The position numbers were made by a program, and so were the translations under genes. A DNA stretch of 12,037 nt from Candidatus Omnitrophota bacterium (GTDB lineage Bacteria; Omnitrophota; Gorgyraeia; Gygaellales; JAHJCI01). The notes under the pieces are model-generated. The model worked only from the letters and a program-made list of their open reading frames with translations. It did not search any database and was not told the DNA's origin. How positions within the stretch are numbered: position 1 is the stretch's first letter; every line of letters begins with the position of its first letter. Where the stretch lies: positions 1 through 12,037 of the forward strand of contig JAHJCI010000148.1 of the NCBI GenBank assembly GCA_018813085.1, read 5' to 3'. Shown in pieces: positions 2,154-6,038 of this stretch.

Positions 2154-3062
2154 CTACTTCGCTTTAAATAACCTGCGGCAGTTGCGGATGTCGCTTCCTA
2201 TTTGTGAGGCTAATCCCTGAATAGAATTAAACTTTTTTTGCTGGCGTATCCTTTTTATGAATTCTACTTCTGTACGCTGCCCGTAAAGATTGCCGTGAAA
2301 ATCCAATATATGAACCTCAATGCTTATCTTGCCCGAATTATTAACTGTCGGCTTACTCCCGATATAGCAGGCGCCTTTAAAACGCCTGAGCGCTAACCTA
2401 ACCCTGACCGCGTAAACACCAAAAGGCGGGATGATATCGTGCTCCGGAAGTATATTTGCAGTCGGATATCCTAACTCCCTGCCCAGGCCAGAACCCTTAT
2501 TTATCTTTCCGAAAATTGTTACCGGACGGCCTAACAATTGCCGTACCTTAAGCAGGTCTCCGGATTTAATCAACTTCCTGATCCAGCTACTGCTTACAGG
2601 CTTACCCTTATGCATCAGAATATCTGCGACAACTAATTTAAATCCAATTTTGCTGGAATAATCCCTTAACATACGCCAGTCGCCTCTAGCCTGTTTTCCG
2701 AATGTAAAATTCTTCCCTATAAGCACGACTGCGGGATTTATTTTTTTTATTATCACTTCGAGTAGGAATTTTTCTGCGGGTATTATGCGTAAGCGGTGAG
2801 TAAACCGGATAACCAGGCATAACTCAACGCCTAATTCCTCCAATAACCTTAAGCGGTGCGATAAAGAATATAGCGCGCTTTCTTTCTGGGGATGAGGGAA
2901 AAACGTAACTACGAGGCTCTTGGCATGAATTCTCCTGGCCTCTTTTTTTAACCTGCTGATTATCCTGCGGTGGCCCCGATGCATGCCGTCAAATACTCCC
3001 AGCGCAACTGCGGGTTTTTTATTTAAAGTTTTGAAGCGGGTAAGGCCGTAAATTACTTTCAT
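2154..3062 (-). CDS. ribF: Bifunctional riboflavin kinase / FAD synthetase RibF
   Basis: 302-residue enzyme, usual length for the family, that phosphorylates riboflavin to FMN and adenylates FMN to FAD. The N-terminal nucleotidyltransferase part shows GVFDGMHRGH (22-31), the counterpart of GxFDGxHxGH. It also shows GKNFTFGKQARGD (116-128) and SSSWIRKLI (157-165), the counterpart of the ISSxxIR motif. The C-terminal kinase domain (about 175-300) shows GLGRELGYPTAN (192-203) with the PTAN nucleotide/Mg motif. It also has FGVYAVRV and SIEVHILDF, with the presumed catalytic Glu at 249. The ATG at 3060-3062 lies 44 bases inside truB and has no clear ribosome site, so translation is probably coupled to truB. 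ribF commonly follows truB in bacterial rbfA-truB-ribF operons. Confidence 0.95.
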   Translation of the reverse strand: MKVIYGLTRFKTLNKKPAVALGVFDGMHRGHRRIISRLKKEARRIHAKSLVVTFFPHPQKESALYSLSHRLRLLEELGVELCLVIRFTHRLRIIPAEKFLLEVIIKKINPAVVLIGKNFTFGKQARGDWRMLRDYSSKIGFKLVVADILMHKGKPVSSSWIRKLIKSGDLLKVRQLLGRPVTIFGKINKGSGLGRELGYPTANILPEHDIIPPFGVYAVRVRLALRRFKGACYIGSKPTVNNSGKISIEVHILDFHGNLYGQRTEVEFIKRIRQQKKFNSIQGLASQIGSDIRNCRRLFKAK

Positions 3063-3696
3063 TGATTTTTAAAAGGGGTACTGCCTGTTTAATATCAAAA
3101 GGCCCTATACTCTGCCTGTTGATCTGTGAAATATGCCCTACGCAATCCAGGTCTTTGGCAATATCTTCGGCTAGCTGCCGTACATAAGTTCCTTTCGAGC
3201 ACCTAATAAAGAACCTGATGTCGGGTAGGTTGAATTCCAACAACTCTAACTCCTTAATCTCAATAGGCCTGGGGCGCCTGCTTACCTGGATGCCGGAACG
3301 AGCCAGTGAATACAGCCTCTTGCCTTTATGTTTAATCGCAGAAACCATCGGCGGAACTTGAAATACCTTCCCCAGATAAAAACGCATGACATCCTCCAGC
3401 TTCTTGCGCGTAACGTGTGCGAAATCTTTCGTCTGGATAGTTTCGCCTTCGCGGTCTCCGCTTGTGGTACGCCTGCCTAACGTCAGGGTAGCCGAGTAGG
3501 TCTTATCATAACCGGAAAAATGGTCAAATAATTTTGTGCACCTGCCGATGAGAATTAAAAGTACTCCCGTTGCAATCGGGTCCAAAGTCCCTGTATGCCC
3601 AACGCGCCGGGTTTTTAACCTCTTTCGCACGAAGTCAACTACGTCATGCGAAGTCATGCCTTCCGGCTTATTAACCACTAGAATCCCGTCTTTCAC
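3019..3696 (-). CDS. truB: tRNA pseudouridine(55) synthase TruB
   Basis: 225-residue enzyme making pseudouridine 55 in the T-loop of tRNA. Visible motifs are GILVVNKPEGMTSHDVV (4-20), GHTGTLDPIATGVL (33-46) with the catalytic Asp at 39, YDKTYSATLTLG, VPPMVSAIKHKGKRLY, and the CSKGTYVRQLAEDI motif in the last third. It is much shorter than E. coli TruB (about 314) and lacks room for the C-terminal PUA domain, as in other compact bacterial TruBs. The present start is GTG (3694-3696), overlapping the stop of the upstream GIY-YIG pseudogene as GTGA. Removing the inserted element would give ATGAAAGACGGG, so the original start was probably ATG overlapping the nrnA stop. The preceding GGAAGG (3702-3707) is supplied by the element. 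Confidence 0.95.
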   Translation of the reverse strand: MKDGILVVNKPEGMTSHDVVDFVRKRLKTRRVGHTGTLDPIATGVLLILIGRCTKLFDHFSGYDKTYSATLTLGRRTTSGDREGETIQTKDFAHVTRKKLEDVMRFYLGKVFQVPPMVSAIKHKGKRLYSLARSGIQVSRRPRPIEIKELELLEFNLPDIRFFIRCSKGTYVRQLAEDIAKDLDCVGHISQINRQSIGPFDIKQAVPLLKINESNLRPYPLQNFK

Positions 3697-3979
3697 CCCG
3701 CCCTTCCTTTTTTACCTACACCGAGCCGAGCCTTAATTTTCACCAAAGTGTTCCCGTATTTTTTCAAAGTTTTCTCTCGCCTCATAAACACATTCTTTAG
3801 ATCTATATGCTTCATAATATATTAATTCTACCGGCAGCATCTTTTTAGTTGAATAAATGCTGCATCATTATGTTCCTTTAACCTATTCTCTAAATTATTA
3901 GTGCAACCTATGTATATCAATCCTCTCTCTTTGTTTCTAAGCAAATATACAAAATACCGCTTAGGGAGGGCGGGGTTCA
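3692..3979 (-). mobile_element. GIY-YIG mini-element 1 with its target duplication (nrnA/truB junction)
   Basis: A 280-bp unit (3696-3975) ends in inverted repeats of 13 bp with one mismatch: CCCCGCCCTTCCT at 3696-3708 against CCCCGCCCTCCCT on the other strand at 3963-3975. It is flanked by a perfect 4-bp direct repeat, TTCA, at 3692-3695 and 3976-3979 (TGAA on the coding strand). Deleting the unit and one repeat copy joins nrnA to truB as TTAAAATGAAAGACGGG, with the nrnA TGA and a truB ATG overlapping as ATGA. The only content is a decayed GIY-YIG gene filling the unit from end to end; there is no transposase. It shares end bases (CCCCG), size, contents and target sequence with the unit at 4945-5213. 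The name is mine. Confidence 0.8.
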
Positions 3980-3980
3980 T
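3693..3980 (-). pseudogene. Frameshifted GIY-YIG nuclease (UPF0213-like), copy 1
   Basis: Three reading-frame segments together give one small GIY-YIG protein. Segment 1 starts at ATG 3978-3980: MNPALPKRYFVYLLRNKERG, then LIYIGCTNNLENRLKEHND, carrying the YVY and YIG strand motifs and the conserved Arg; it ends at a TAG at 3828-3830. After a shift near 3856-3868 the next frame reads SIYSTKKMLPVELIYYEAYR, continuing SKECVY. After a second shift near 3780-3785 it reads RREKTLKKYGNTLVKIKARL, ending KKGRAG and TGA at 3693-3695; the conserved Glu of this half is in RREK. A one-base loss at the first site and a one-base gain at the second would explain the breaks. Its ATG overlaps the nrnA stop (ATGA) and its TGA overlaps the truB GTG. 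GIY-YIG domains cut DNA; this copy should be inactive unless the breaks are assembly errors. Confidence 0.85.
3702..3713 (-). promoter_or_regulatory. Element-borne ribosome site for truB
   Basis: The minus strand reads AAAAAAGGAAGG, 5 bases before the GTG at 3694-3696. It lies inside the right end of mini-element 1 and partly within its inverted repeat, so the inserted DNA appears to supply the initiation signal for the displaced truB. Confidence 0.65.
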
Positions 3981-4945
3981 TTTAACTGTTCTTTTATTTT
4001 ACTTACTACCATTTTCCTTGCCTGCTTCAGGCTTCCTATAATCGTGCACCCGCTGGCAGTCTTGTGCCCTCCGCCGCCGAAAAATTTGGCAATGCGGTTT
4101 ACGTCTACCTTCCCCTGGGACCTGAAGTTTACGCGAATTTGCCCGGGCTTACTCACCTGCTCTCTAAACAAAACACATGCCTGGCAACCACGAATCAAGC
4201 GCCCGAAATTCAGTATATTTTCGGTTAAATCGAAACTGACTTTTTTCTGCCTGAGAAAATTGATTCTAATCTGAAAGATGATGATTTTCCCGGATGCGTC
4301 TTTTTCTAATCTTGAAAAAATTTTCGATAAAAGAAACATGTCAGAGTAAGAAACAGACTCGTAAATATTTCTATAAATTTCCAAGATATCCAATTTATGC
4401 TTCATCAGCTCTGCTGCCATTTGATGCGTAAAAGAGCTGGTATTTATATAGCGAAAAGATCCTGTGTCGGTAAGTATCCCGGTATACAAAGCCCTGGCTG
4501 AATCAAGGTCGATTTTAACGCGCATGGCTTTATAAAGCCGGTAAACCATCTCTGCTACCGAAGAAGCATCTGAAAGAACCCAGTTGACTTCGCCGAATTT
4601 AGTATTTGAAATATGGTGGTCTATATTTAAAACTGTCTTGCCCGGTGAGACCAAATCATAGACTTTACCCGGGCGGGATTTATCGGAACAATCAAGCAAT
4701 ACCAACACATCAAAATCGACTTTCATCTTAGGCCGGTACCTGGATATGGCCTTAGTATCCTTAAGGAAAGTATATTCTTCAGACGTAGGGTCCTGGTTTA
4801 CTATTAACGCAGACTTGCCCTTTTTCTTAAGAAGCCTGTAAAAGGCTATTTCCGAACCCAGGGCATCACCTTCTAAGTTCTGATGCGAGGTAATTAAAAA
4901 TTTCTTGTTCCTGTTAATGCAATCAATCACTTTTTGTATGCTCAC
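3977..4945 (-). CDS. nrnA: Bifunctional oligoribonuclease / PAP phosphatase NrnA (DHH family)
   Basis: 322-residue DHH-DHHA1 phosphoesterase that degrades nanoRNA and dephosphorylates 3'-phosphoadenosine 5'-phosphate. The DHH domain (about 1-185) shows ITSHQNLEGDALGSE (18-32), LLDCSD (83-88), IDHHISNTKFG (108-118) with the DHH triad, and LTDTGSFRY (158-166). The C-terminal DHHA1 domain carries FGGGGHKTASG (289-299). Motif I reads NLEGDA where NPDGDA is usual, a conservative Asp-to-Glu change at residue 25. The current start is GTG (4943-4945), overlapping the stop of the GIY-YIG pseudogene. Removing the upstream insertion gives AAAGGAGCAAAATGAGC, a normal ribosome site and ATG. nrnA between rbfA and truB is a recurrent bacterial gene order. 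The stop overlaps the ATG of GIY-YIG copy 1. Confidence 0.93.
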   Translation of the reverse strand: MSIQKVIDCINRNKKFLITSHQNLEGDALGSEIAFYRLLKKKGKSALIVNQDPTSEEYTFLKDTKAISRYRPKMKVDFDVLVLLDCSDKSRPGKVYDLVSPGKTVLNIDHHISNTKFGEVNWVLSDASSVAEMVYRLYKAMRVKIDLDSARALYTGILTDTGSFRYINTSSFTHQMAAELMKHKLDILEIYRNIYESVSYSDMFLLSKIFSRLEKDASGKIIIFQIRINFLRQKKVSFDLTENILNFGRLIRGCQACVLFREQVSKPGQIRVNFRSQGKVDVNRIAKFFGGGGHKTASGCTIIGSLKQARKMVVSKIKEQLK

Positions 4946-5217
4946 CCCGTTAGACCCTCCTTTAAGCGATTTTTTAAATATCGCTTTTCCATTCCTGTTT
5001 TTAGATACTTTTCTCTACGATAAGCATCGTTTTTATTCAAACAAACTTCATAATAAATTAACTTCAAAAGGCTTCCTTAATTTTGTAGCTTTAGCTGTTG
5101 CGTTATTATGTTGTTTTATCCGTAGCATTAAATTTGCCGTTACCCCAGTATAGAAATTTTTATCTCTTTCTGATTGTAAAACATAAGTATAATACCACAA
5201 GGGTCTAACGGGGCTCA
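4941..5217 (-). mobile_element. GIY-YIG mini-element 2 with its target duplication (rbfA/nrnA junction)
   Basis: A 269-bp unit (4945-5213) has perfect 14-bp terminal inverted repeats: CCCCGTTAGACCCT at 4945-4958 and its reverse complement at 5200-5213. It is flanked by a perfect 4-bp direct repeat, CTCA, at 4941-4944 and 5214-5217 (TGAG on the coding strand). Removing the unit and one repeat recreates AAAGGAGCAAAATGAGC in front of nrnA, and lets rbfA run on to a stop a few codons later. The left arm now provides the rbfA stop (TAG, 5205-5207) and the right arm provides the nrnA GTG start. The only gene inside is a GIY-YIG nuclease relic; no transposase is present. Confidence 0.85.
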
Positions 5218-5218
5218 T
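4942..5218 (-). pseudogene. Frameshifted GIY-YIG nuclease (UPF0213-like), copy 2
   Basis: From ATG 5216-5218 the frame reads MSPVRPLWYYTYVLQSERDK, then NFYTGVTANLMLRIKQHNNA, and reaches KPFEV before stopping at TGA 5048-5050. Reading resumes in another frame at about 5061-5071 as KLIYYEVCLNKNDAYRREKY, ending RLKEGLTG with TGA at 4942-4944. One extra base in CTTTTGAAG (expected PFKLIYYE) explains the break. The GIY-YIG pattern is seen as YTYVLQS (first strand), FYTGVT (YIG position), the Arg in MLRIKQH and the Glu in RREK. The first 14 bases overlap the end of rbfA, and the ATG and ribosome site used (AAAGGAG, 5223-5229) are those that originally belonged to nrnA. The N- and C-terminal residues are encoded by the inverted repeats. 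Confidence 0.87.
4956..4963 (-). promoter_or_regulatory. Element-borne ribosome site for nrnA
   Basis: The minus strand reads AAAGGAGG, 10 bases before GTG 4943-4945, at the inner edge of the right inverted repeat of mini-element 2. It replaces the original nrnA site left behind at 5223-5229. Confidence 0.7.
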
Positions 5219-5558
5219 TTTGCTCCTTTATTTCGTCGATTTCTTTCTGAATTTTAATACTGTATTCAACCGAACGGTCGAGTTTAAAAAGAATCTCCGG
5301 GTTATAGCGTAATTGCACTCTTTGCCCGAGGATAAAACGGATATACGGCGTAGCATGCTTCAATACCTTCTGCGTAGCCTTCTGCTCCTTCTCTCCTGCC
5401 AGTACGCTGAAATAAACTTTTGCGAACTTAAAATCATCGCTTAACTCAACGCTCATAATGGTAACAAACCCTAAACGCCTATCCTTTAATTCATTATGCA
5501 CTATATTGCTTATCTCCCTCTTAAGGGCTGCTATTACCTTCTGTTGCCTGACTCTCAT
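5205..5558 (-). CDS. rbfA: 30S ribosome-binding factor RbfA
   Basis: 117-residue KH-type protein that binds the 30S subunit during late 16S rRNA maturation. The N-terminal helix MRVRQQKVIAALKREISNIV, the LKDRRLGFVTIMSVELSDDF segment, KVYFSV and the C-terminal RYNPEILFKLDRS all match the family, and length is normal. GGAG lies 8 bases before the ATG (5556-5558). The last codons PR and the TAG lie in the left inverted repeat of mini-element 2. Before that insertion the frame would have continued about five more codons into the nrnA start region. The tail is non-conserved, so function should be unaffected. Its neighbours ylxP, truB and ribF are the usual operon partners. Confidence 0.93.
   Translation of the reverse strand: MRVRQQKVIAALKREISNIVHNELKDRRLGFVTIMSVELSDDFKFAKVYFSVLAGEKEQKATQKVLKHATPYIRFILGQRVQLRYNPEILFKLDRSVEYSIKIQKEIDEIKEQNEPR
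5223..5229 (-). promoter_or_regulatory. Ancestral nrnA ribosome site, now driving the GIY-YIG relic
   Basis: AAAGGAG lies inside the 3' end of rbfA, 4 bases before ATG 5216-5218. If mini-element 2 is removed, the same ATG continues as ATGAGCATACAAAAAG, which is the nrnA N-terminus MSIQK. The signal has been captured by the inserted gene. Confidence 0.7.
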
Positions 5559-5757: not shown

Positions 5758-6038
5758 TTAGATCATCTCCGTTTCGTAATCTACTATATTAACCTGGCTG
5801 AAATTTTCAACAAAATTAATTAGCTCAGCAAATTCCCTGTCTATATATCTTTTGTTCTTTTCCAAGCCTACGATAGCTAAGCTGGACTTCTGCCATTTAT
5901 CCTATCATCAACTTCGCTTATTGCTATATTGAATCTATTACGCAGGCGGCCTTTTATGCTGTGTAGGGCCATTCCCTTATGCTTCAAGGAATTAGAGCTA
6001 GCGATAAACAATACCAGCCTCAATATAGCAATGGCCAT
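5758..6038 (-). pseudogene. ylxP: Frameshifted YlxP (DUF503) protein
   Basis: From ATG 6036-6038 the frame reads MAIAILRLVLFIASSNSLKH, then KGMALHSIKGRLRNRFNIAI and SEVDD, the typical DUF503 pattern with the NSLK...RLRNRFN segment. It then hits TAG at 5877-5879. A one-base shift near 5899-5904 restores DKWQKSSLAIVGLEKNKRYI and the family ending VNIVDYETEMI, with TAA at 5758-5760. Together the two parts give about 93 residues, full family length. YlxP is a small protein of uncertain function encoded next to infB and rbfA in many bacteria, so the position before rbfA supports the call. The ATG follows the cca stop by one base. Either the gene is decaying or one base is missing from the assembly. 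Confidence 0.8.

Follow-up and report, generated by a model that had tools for sequence, protein, structure and literature searches.

To our knowledge, no GIY-YIG enzyme acts as a transposase. The T4 Seg type represents the free-standing GIY-YIG homing endonucleases. A cluster of free-standing homing endonucleases of the GIY-YIG type is described in PMC1564403, in which Penelope-like elements with GIY-YIG are mentioned as well. The RUP, ERIC/RU-1, Correia and RPE repeats are described as not protein-encoding in PMC2229807. Among solved structures, the best relatives by sequence of the nuclease described here are UPF0213 proteins (PDB 1zg2, 1ywl). We analysed two small units in an operon of a Candidatus Omnitrophota bacterium (contig JAHJCI010000148.1). 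The whole stretch of 12,037 nucleotides that was analysed is referred to as the window, and all features given below lie on its minus strand.

Results

Each of the two units in the window consists of inverted arms, a 4-bp target duplication and a single GIY-YIG nuclease gene. Unit 2 is an RP-type element of 269 bp (4945..5213) with the arms CCCCGTTAGACCCT and AGGGTCTAACGGGG. Its left arm (5200..5213) and right arm (4945..4958) are 14 nt long and complementary at 14/14 positions, the copies of the target duplication TGAG are found at 5214..5217 (left) and 4941..4944 (right), and the junctions read ATGAG/CCCCGTTAGACCCT...AGGGTCTAACGGGG/TGAGC. Unit 1 is an AP-type element of 280 bp (3696..3975) with the arms CCCCGCCCTCCCT and AGGAAGGGCGGGG, which show one mismatch. 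It is flanked by TGAA at 3976..3979 (left), which holds the nrnA stop, and at 3692..3695 (right), with the junctions ATGAA/CCCCGCCCTCCCT...AGGAAGGGCGGGG/TGAAAG.

An earlier reading of this DNA (the sequence-only reading) had proposed that both units are inserted directly after the ATGA or ATGAG of the downstream gene, that the GIY-YIG frame begins at the captured ATG and that the downstream gene receives a new GTG start. All three points were confirmed at both units. The ATG at 5216..5218, which the sequence and the empty sites identify as the original nrnA start, now starts the GIY-YIG frame of unit 2, and the ATG at 3978..3980, on the same grounds the original truB start, starts that of unit 1 and overlaps the TGA stop of nrnA (ATGA). 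New GTG starts are present for nrnA (4945-4943; DHH/DHHA1, 3977..4945), where the G of the arm is joined to the TG of the duplication, and for truB (3696-3694; gene 3019..3696). The predicted purine-rich ribosome sites at the right arms were found as the Shine-Dalgarno-like sequences AAAGGAGG for nrnA (4956..4963, partly within the arm) and AAGGAAGG for truB (3702..3709). The new stop claimed for rbfA (5205..5558; open reading frame with Pfam RBFA) is present too, since the left arm of unit 2 supplies the last codons and a TAG at 5205-5207, at position +13 of the arm.

The proposed overlap of the GIY-YIG TGA with the new GTG start did not hold in the window; because both window copies are frameshifted, it is seen in intact relatives only, that is in 16 of the 26 distinct elements described below. 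In unit 2 (MSPVRP..., 5048..5218) a frameshift is located near 5060, the frame from the captured ATG ends at 5048 and a second frame continues to a TGA at 4942-4944. Unit 1 (MNPALP..., 3828..3980) is likewise broken by frameshifts; its frame from the captured ATG ends at 3828, and the in-frame end KGRAG-stop lies at the right arm. Though broken, the two frames match PF01541 in a profile scan (1.2e-9 and 2.7e-10). Both window units are decayed copies.

In some relatives the nrnA and truB start codons are uninterrupted. The first codon of nrnA reads ATGAG in 9 of 19 insert-free relatives, the other 10 having another triplet at the aligned place, and, where truB aligned (11 insert-free relatives), 2 have ATGAAAGACGG at its first codon.

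A family survey yielded 26 distinct elements with both ends, belonging to two arm families (16 RP and 10 AP). Elements were selected on their arms and nuclease without regard to the flanks, although the AP protein query did contain the first residues MNP, and the element table demanded a GIY-YIG-like motif. Dropped before counting were a chance match not at [A/G]TGAR (L129), a locus with other arms (L187), duplicate loci, L123 and L126 (left ATGAA, right arm not found), L170, L153, L157 and L158 (all without GIY-YIG) and the outer scar row of L156. One further AP-like match, L183, was kept out of the table as its left end does not fit. The flanking genomes are mostly draft assemblies, and the named DNA loci are limited to Omnitrophota, Aminicenantes and one Phycisphaerae record.

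A left [A/G]TGAR with an identical right TGAR duplication is present in 24/26 elements; L111 (ATAAA) and L125 (ACAAG) have no exact left match. The right copy is TGAA in 22 and TGAG in 4 elements. A downstream frame of at least 100 codons opens exactly from the regenerated start in 25/26, the exception being L119 with 17 codons, and an upstream frame of more than 60 codons ends within 60 nt in all 26. The upstream stop coincides with bases 1-3 of the left duplication in 11 elements (TAA in L111) and lies inside the arm in 7. Arms ending in C/G give a GTG start (14/14) and arms ending in T/A restore ATG (12/12), so that replacement by GTG, as claimed from the window, applies to 14 of the 26 elements. 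The combination of a left [A/G]TGAR with a frame open for 100 codons or more after the regenerated start was found in 23/26 elements compared to 79/774 TGAR sites taken from the flanks as a control (binomial tail 3e-20), a control which cannot tell target choice from selection. All 22 downstream frames that were scanned with Pfam (L081, L089, L119 and the second of L121 were outside the scan) gave a match, to 21 different families including TrpRS, DnaE, RpiB, AroB, HisD and ribosomal L10.

Internal in-frame ATG, GTG or TTG codons are absent in 23/26 elements, and stops in the left end close the other two reading frames as well. The mean Shine-Dalgarno pairing energy at the right end is -9.5 (RP) and -9.7 (AP) kcal/mol, compared to -2.2 in the B group and -2.9 in the background, and is weaker than -6 in 4 of 27 rows (L081, L097, L130, L131). 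The nuclease frame is intact in 16 elements, counting L125, whose ATG is one codon further upstream, and broken in 10, including both window copies. Element sizes range from 265 to 301 bp, with L132 (171 bp, an internal deletion) and L185 (343 bp) as outliers. The arms are predicted to pair in the mRNA of 24/26 elements. Such pairing could conceivably make the downstream start depend on translation of the nuclease, which we put forward as a mere idea because long complementary arms often pair regardless.

Whether other members overlap start codons had been proposed as a check, and both arm families passed it. The start-codon-capture interpretation is thereby supported, and RP and AP elements carry features without counterpart in the related B group, which has similar arms and its own start codon. 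Only 2/16 B elements are located at [A/G]TGAR versus 24/26 RP/AP elements (Fisher 2e-7). An own in-frame start is present in 14 of 15 B elements and lacking in 1, the right end has no Shine-Dalgarno site, and the duplications vary (TAAA, TTTA, TGAA, TGGA, TAAG, TTCG). Eight further rows are outside the 16, namely four B-like ones in which the nuclease motif is not clear (L095, L112, L113, L163) and four arm pieces (L164-L167). None of these 8 has [A/G]TGAR on the left, and a matching duplication (TTTA) is found in L164 only.

According to Pfam labels, intact relatives carry PF01541, some also PF10544, and PF13455 occurs in one fusion; no DDE, HUH, serine or tyrosine transposase was recognised among the labels of the element-encoded proteins. 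A search with the RP core domain gave 373 matches, and among the 120 listed, 95 carry [M/V][N/S]PVRP. Residues Y9, Y11, Y22, R32, H36, E56, E68 and N82 and the R-x3-H spacing are invariant among 10 aligned RP proteins; the active-site set of R.Eco29kI is given as Tyr, Tyr, Arg, His, Glu and Asn in PMC1952068. The RP profile is passed at 1e-3 by at least 7968 among the 7999 scored candidates listed. Start capture may account for some of the genes that are commonly annotated as small GIY-YIG or 'excinuclease subunit C'.

Near-identical copies occur at unrelated genes. L130 and L131, on two contigs of one genome, are 92.2% identical, with flanks at 46-49% compared to a background of 49%, and the two copies in L121 are 80.1% identical. 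At the orthologous dsbD site of L071 and L081, third-position identity is 0.89 in the element compared to 0.49 and 0.55 in the flanks, showing the element to be much younger than its surroundings. One mnhB start is occupied by an RP element in one genome and by an AP element in another (L108, L179). A quick tree placed RP and AP in two groups with 2 label changes. RP and AP constrained to one clade was not rejected and even scored higher (p-AU 0.71), so the habit may have had one or two origins. No support was obtained for an origin in phages or plasmids: two patterns searched in viral contigs gave 0 stretches, the plasmid search gave no match, and 2 phage records matched with 34% identity across 73% of the query.

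Discussion

We consider it likely that both units are decayed members of a family of tiny mobile elements specialised for landing inside start codons. The insertion point would be within a gene's start codon, at ATGAR or sometimes GTGAR, and the duplicated TGAR would keep the host ATG and ribosome site in front of the element. The host ATG would start the nuclease frame (M-[N/S]-P-V-R-P or M-[N/S]-P-A-L-P), the left end would terminate upstream genes reading in from other frames, and the right arm would provide both the last residues of the nuclease and a Shine-Dalgarno site. The last base of this arm and the TG of the duplication would form a new ATG or GTG, overlapped by the nuclease stop (RTGA). 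'Gene A - gene B' would become 'gene A - nuclease - gene B', and coupling could occur at either junction. With the new ribosome site and start codon, the operon of the host is expected to remain readable, and expression of the downstream gene would be kept, presumably at the low cost that the sequence-only reading proposed. We infer that the element is mobilised by its GIY-YIG nuclease and that ATGAR is chosen at insertion, beyond mere retention by selection.

The strongest competing explanation, possible but in our view clearly the lesser one, is a loose target of about TNNR with selection alone leaving copies at start codons, where both neighbours are spared. The varied duplications of the similarly armed B elements are in line with this, as is the fact that harmless places in dense operons are gene junctions. 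Across 25 empty sites, ATGAR is all that is conserved apart from the purines that a ribosome site would bring. On the other hand, the right copy is TGAA or TGAG in all 26 RP/AP elements, which is narrower than in B, RP and AP elements occur at one and the same mnhB start, and features that depend on the position are present (no own start, Shine-Dalgarno site, third-frame stop).

It is unlikely that the arms form a non-autonomous MITE whose movement depends on an unlinked transposase, with the GIY-YIG gene as passenger or helper. Some pieces do have GTTAGAAA arms but lack a GIY-YIG motif, among them L164 with its matching duplication, L132 is internally deleted and a known transposase is absent from the element; the table cannot fairly count nuclease-free arms because a GIY-YIG-like motif was required. 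Within the table, however, the arms encode the termini of the nuclease itself, the arm families track nuclease groups (RP and AP each on one side of a branch), and, where a MITE would encode no protein, an intact nuclease frame is found in 16/26.

Still less probable is that the units are free-standing homing endonuclease genes whose only movement is into the corresponding site of relatives lacking the element. The GIY-YIG domain fits such genes, and the dsbD-site element, younger than its flanks, is what repeated homing would give. The arms, the target duplications, the 21 different families to which the downstream genes belong and the L130/L131 copies at unrelated genes of one genome all speak against it. 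Movement was not confined to the cognate empty allele, and homing as the only process is rejected because the insertion sites are unrelated, even between copies within one genome. The idea of ordinary GIY-YIG genes of the operon whose inverted repeats arose by chance can be dismissed: small GIY-YIG genes are common in these genomes (58/58 with a GIY-YIG match, UvrC included), but the arm pattern occurs in 23/384 genomes versus 2 for the reversed control, and the identical 4-bp duplications and the empty sites refute chance.

Beyond start-codon capture itself, we give about even chances to a class of autonomous DNA transposons of ~270 bp, with the GIY-YIG nuclease as sole enzyme and the start codon as target, which take the host ATG and repay it with a Shine-Dalgarno site and an ATG or GTG, and which have related small GIY-YIG lineages with their own conserved landing sites (tRNA genes elsewhere). 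A point against mobilisation by the nuclease is that, as far as we know, a 4-bp duplication differs from the overhang usually described for GIY-YIG enzymes. If true, precise insertion in the starts of essential genes with preserved translation would show a new way in which mobile DNA can persist in a compact genome. If the nuclease moves the element, a GIY-YIG nuclease would act as transposase and the elements would be among the smallest autonomous transposons known; what assays of cutting, transposition and translation should show follows directly from this reading.

Compared to known systems, the elements share with TIR transposons the terminal inverted repeats, the constant 4-bp duplication with empty nrnA and truB sites, and several copies at unrelated sites of one genome (L130/L131; L121); a recognised transposase is missing. 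UPF0213 proteins have the same domain and a similar size, and we know of no arms or start-codon position for them. As in Penelope-like elements, GIY-YIG would serve mobility, but these are retroelements with a reverse transcriptase, for which 265-301 bp is too small. GIY-YIG homing endonucleases are similar in that a selfish-looking gene has a GIY-YIG nuclease as sole product and the flanks are older than the element at one of the sites; in contrast to them, the elements have arms, a 4-bp duplication, many unrelated sites and dependence on a captured start. Like the insertion sequences and MITE-like repeats treated in PMC2229807, they are short, have terminal inverted repeats and a target duplication, and lie between genes or add reading frames. 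Unlike MITE-like repeats, they are filled by a nuclease gene, with no known transposase, and their arms serve both as ends of the protein and as signals for translation.

Two Decayed Elements Occupy Former Start Codons in the Window

Re-examination of the sequence returned the same coordinates for the two short GIY-YIG inserts as the sequence-only reading. The genes rbfA, nrnA and truB lie on the minus strand of the window (Pfam RBFA, DHH/DHHA1 and TruB_N), and on the same strand unit 2 (5213-4945, 269 bp) is located between rbfA and nrnA and unit 1 (3975-3696, 280 bp) between nrnA and truB. Both carry inverted arms at their ends, complementary at 14 of 14 positions in unit 2 and with one mismatch in 14 in unit 1, and are flanked by four-base repeats (TGAG/TGAG and TGAA/TGAA, respectively). 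Each contains a GIY-YIG frame whose ATG lies immediately outside the left arm. The sequence-only reading had overlooked the interruption of both frames: the ORFs from the captured ATGs stop early, at 5048 (unit 2) and 3828 (unit 1), and both units are decayed copies. A DUF503 gene at 5877-6038 is apparently truncated (53 amino acids, matching profile positions 1-43 of 88), and together with the two broken frames it could point to decay or to errors of assembly.

Empty sites were compared in 19 relatives retrieved with the nrnA protein, of which 11 had an alignable truB. Nine of the 19, including a genome of the same family (G002), have ATGAG at the aligned first codon of nrnA, and ten differ there; the aligned first codon of truB reads ATGAAAGACGG in two of the 11 (G001, of the same family, and G014). 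The starts behind the inserts in the window read GTGAG (nrnA) and GTGAAAGACGG (truB). The uninterrupted starts in relatives therefore place the inserts exactly behind ATGA-R of the former starts, with TGAR doubled, in agreement with the proposed insertion right behind ATGA or ATGAG of the downstream gene.

Elements of Two Arm Families Are Found at Start Codons

After removal of duplicates and of matches without two arms, the counted set consisted of 26 distinct elements, 16 of the RP type (arms YCCYGTTAGACCY, as unit 2) and 10 of the AP type (arms YCCMGCCCYYCC, as unit 1), part of them taken from the initial GIY-YIG family search. The arm pattern CCYGTTAGA...TCTAACRGG occurred in 23 of 384 genomes of the phylum, and its reversed control in two. 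A pattern of RP left arm and nuclease N-terminus with unconstrained flanks gave 16 matches in 15 stretches of genome contigs, and a relaxed version was found in 8 of 384 genomes of the class. The AP arm pattern was present in 7 of 285 genomes, four of them with GIY-YIG elements, and an AP protein query, itself starting with MNP, found 13 places in 11 of 384 genomes. True RP elements in named records belong to Omnitrophota, Aminicenantes and one Phycisphaerae; one Deltaproteobacteria match to the RP pattern was a chance match.

In 24 of the 26 elements, [A/G]TGAR at the left end is matched by the same four bases behind the right arm. The left ends of L111 and L125 read ATAAA and ACAAG instead, and the right copy of each is TGAA. 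The ORF from the regenerated codon spans at least 100 codons in 25 elements (17 codons in L119), and the prediction that other members overlap start codons holds in both arm families. The sequence-only reading had each insertion create a GTG start; the outer arm bases covary, C with G giving GTG in 14 elements and T with A restoring ATG in the other 12. Of the 26 downstream proteins, 22 were scanned, and each had a Pfam match. As expected if the regenerated start is right, a matched domain begins within the first 20 residues in TrpRS, RpiB, HisD, DnaE, MnhB, DsbD, ribosomal L10 and a pyridine-nucleotide oxidoreductase. The combination of [A/G] before TGAR with 100 open codons was found in 23/26 elements versus 79/774 TGAR sites in the flanks (tail probability 3e-20), a control that is blind to target choice versus selection.

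The B group, which shares CCCCGTTAGA-like arms and a related nuclease but differs in the GAGAT-like sequence that comes next, served as contrast. Fourteen of 15 B elements have their own start codon, and 10 of 16 are flanked by identical 4-bp duplications (TAAA, TTTA, TGAA, TGGA, TAAG, TTCG). Only 2 of 16 lie at [A/G]TGAR, compared to 24 of 26 RP/AP elements (Fisher, 2e-7), and start capture is therefore a trait of the RP and AP groups rather than of GIY-YIG elements generally. Several B elements are nonetheless near gene junctions. Neither [A/G]TGAR nor a matching duplication was found at four further B-like loci without clear motif. In the tree, a branch separates each of RP and AP from the rest (SH-aLRT 84 and 92), and a single start-capturing clade of both was not rejected.

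Three B-type copies in one genome (L160, L162 and L163 in G130) each have GCCAG in front and TAAA behind, with no matching duplications, and may reflect a different insertion site in common or recombination. L164, L165 and L166 are pieces between CCCGTTAGAAA arms without clear GIY-YIG motif, with a TTTA duplication at L164; they are possible non-autonomous relatives.

The Nuclease Frame Depends on the Captured Start

In 23 of 26 elements an in-frame ATG, GTG or TTG is absent between captured start and GIY-YIG motif; unit 2 (TTG), L180 (broken) and L186 do have one. The nuclease of these 23 therefore depends on the captured start. At residue 2 only Asn or Ser is possible, as no other amino acid can follow the start in ATG-AR-Y. 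Among the 120 matches listed for the RP core domain, a search that does not favour full N-termini, [M/V][N/S]PVRP was present in 95, other sequence preceded the motif in four, and 21 lacked it, several being near variants. In the RP profile and AP searches, which do favour full N-termini, the C-terminus was LTG in 111 among 120 RP matches listed, and M[N/S]PA and a C-terminal AG were present in 67 and 64 of 79 AP proteins.

The second frame runs into a TGA stop at the left end, and the third into TAG or TAA of the arm. The upstream ORF ends on the first three duplication bases in 11 of 26 elements (TAA in L111), in the arm in 7 and at most 60 nt ahead in the remaining 8. Pairing of the anti-Shine-Dalgarno tail with the 20 nt preceding the new start averages -9.5 (RP) and -9.7 kcal/mol (AP), compared to -2.2 for B elements and -2.9 for random 20-mers; -6 kcal/mol is reached in 23 of 27 rows.

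Copies at Unrelated Genes Indicate Mobility

Two contigs of Omnitrophica WOR_2 GWA2_47_8 (L130, L131) carry elements with 92.2% identity at unrelated genes, aroB and one for a UDP-GlcNAc 2-epimerase; the identity of their flanks is that of the background. At one dsbD site (L071, L081), third-codon-position identity is 0.89 for the nuclease versus 0.49 and 0.55 for the neighbours; the element therefore arrived or was replaced long after the host split, as if by re-acquisition or homing, judging from these identities. The same mnhB start is occupied by an RP element in one genome and an AP element in another (L108, L179). In L156 and L186 (both AP), apparent remnants of 39 and 30 bp that consist of arms alone lie at a start codon, and a newer element appears to sit inside the GTGAA regenerated by the older remnant, as if an element had been excised imprecisely or had lost its interior before the site was re-invaded. 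A weak candidate for a short AP right-end remnant (...KARLKLTMGKEGSGG) precedes a GTG-start nrnA in another genome (L143).

Proposed Mechanism and Comparison With Known Elements

The anatomy of the elements, the duplication of TGAR, the empty sites and the copies at unrelated genes are direct observations; in the mechanism that we infer, the GIY-YIG enzyme would take part in insertion at chosen start codons, and expression would be maintained. With the left copy of TGAR, the ATG and ribosome site of the host would come to serve the nuclease; the right copy and the final arm base would form the next gene's start, with a ribosome site supplied by the element's right end. In intact elements the terminal TGA overlaps the new start (RTGA), so that translation could pass from gene to gene. 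The conserved nuclease residues appear to fit the active-site set as described for R.Eco29kI (PMC1952068). By sequence, the closest proteins of solved structure belong to UPF0213.

Other small GIY-YIG lineages occupy loci that contain tRNA genes, present in 18 of 21 hand-picked ones: tRNA-Glu(ttc) in all five loci of an SSSLV/SSSLA-type lineage (L016, L057, L074, L077, L090), tRNA-Pro in L029, L051 and L076, and tRNA-Tyr (L002) and tRNA-Ser (L005), each followed by a copy, in the window's own genome. This association by lineage suggests lineage-specific landing sites.

No arm-bearing GIY-YIG elements at start codons were found in the titles and abstract openings of the open-access journal literature covered. 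The RP and AP elements differ from homing genes by their arms, duplications and unrelated sites, from insertion sequences in the strict sense by having no known transposase, and from MITEs by encoding their own nuclease. These contrasts would set them apart as a new category, provided that no separate transposase moves the arms.
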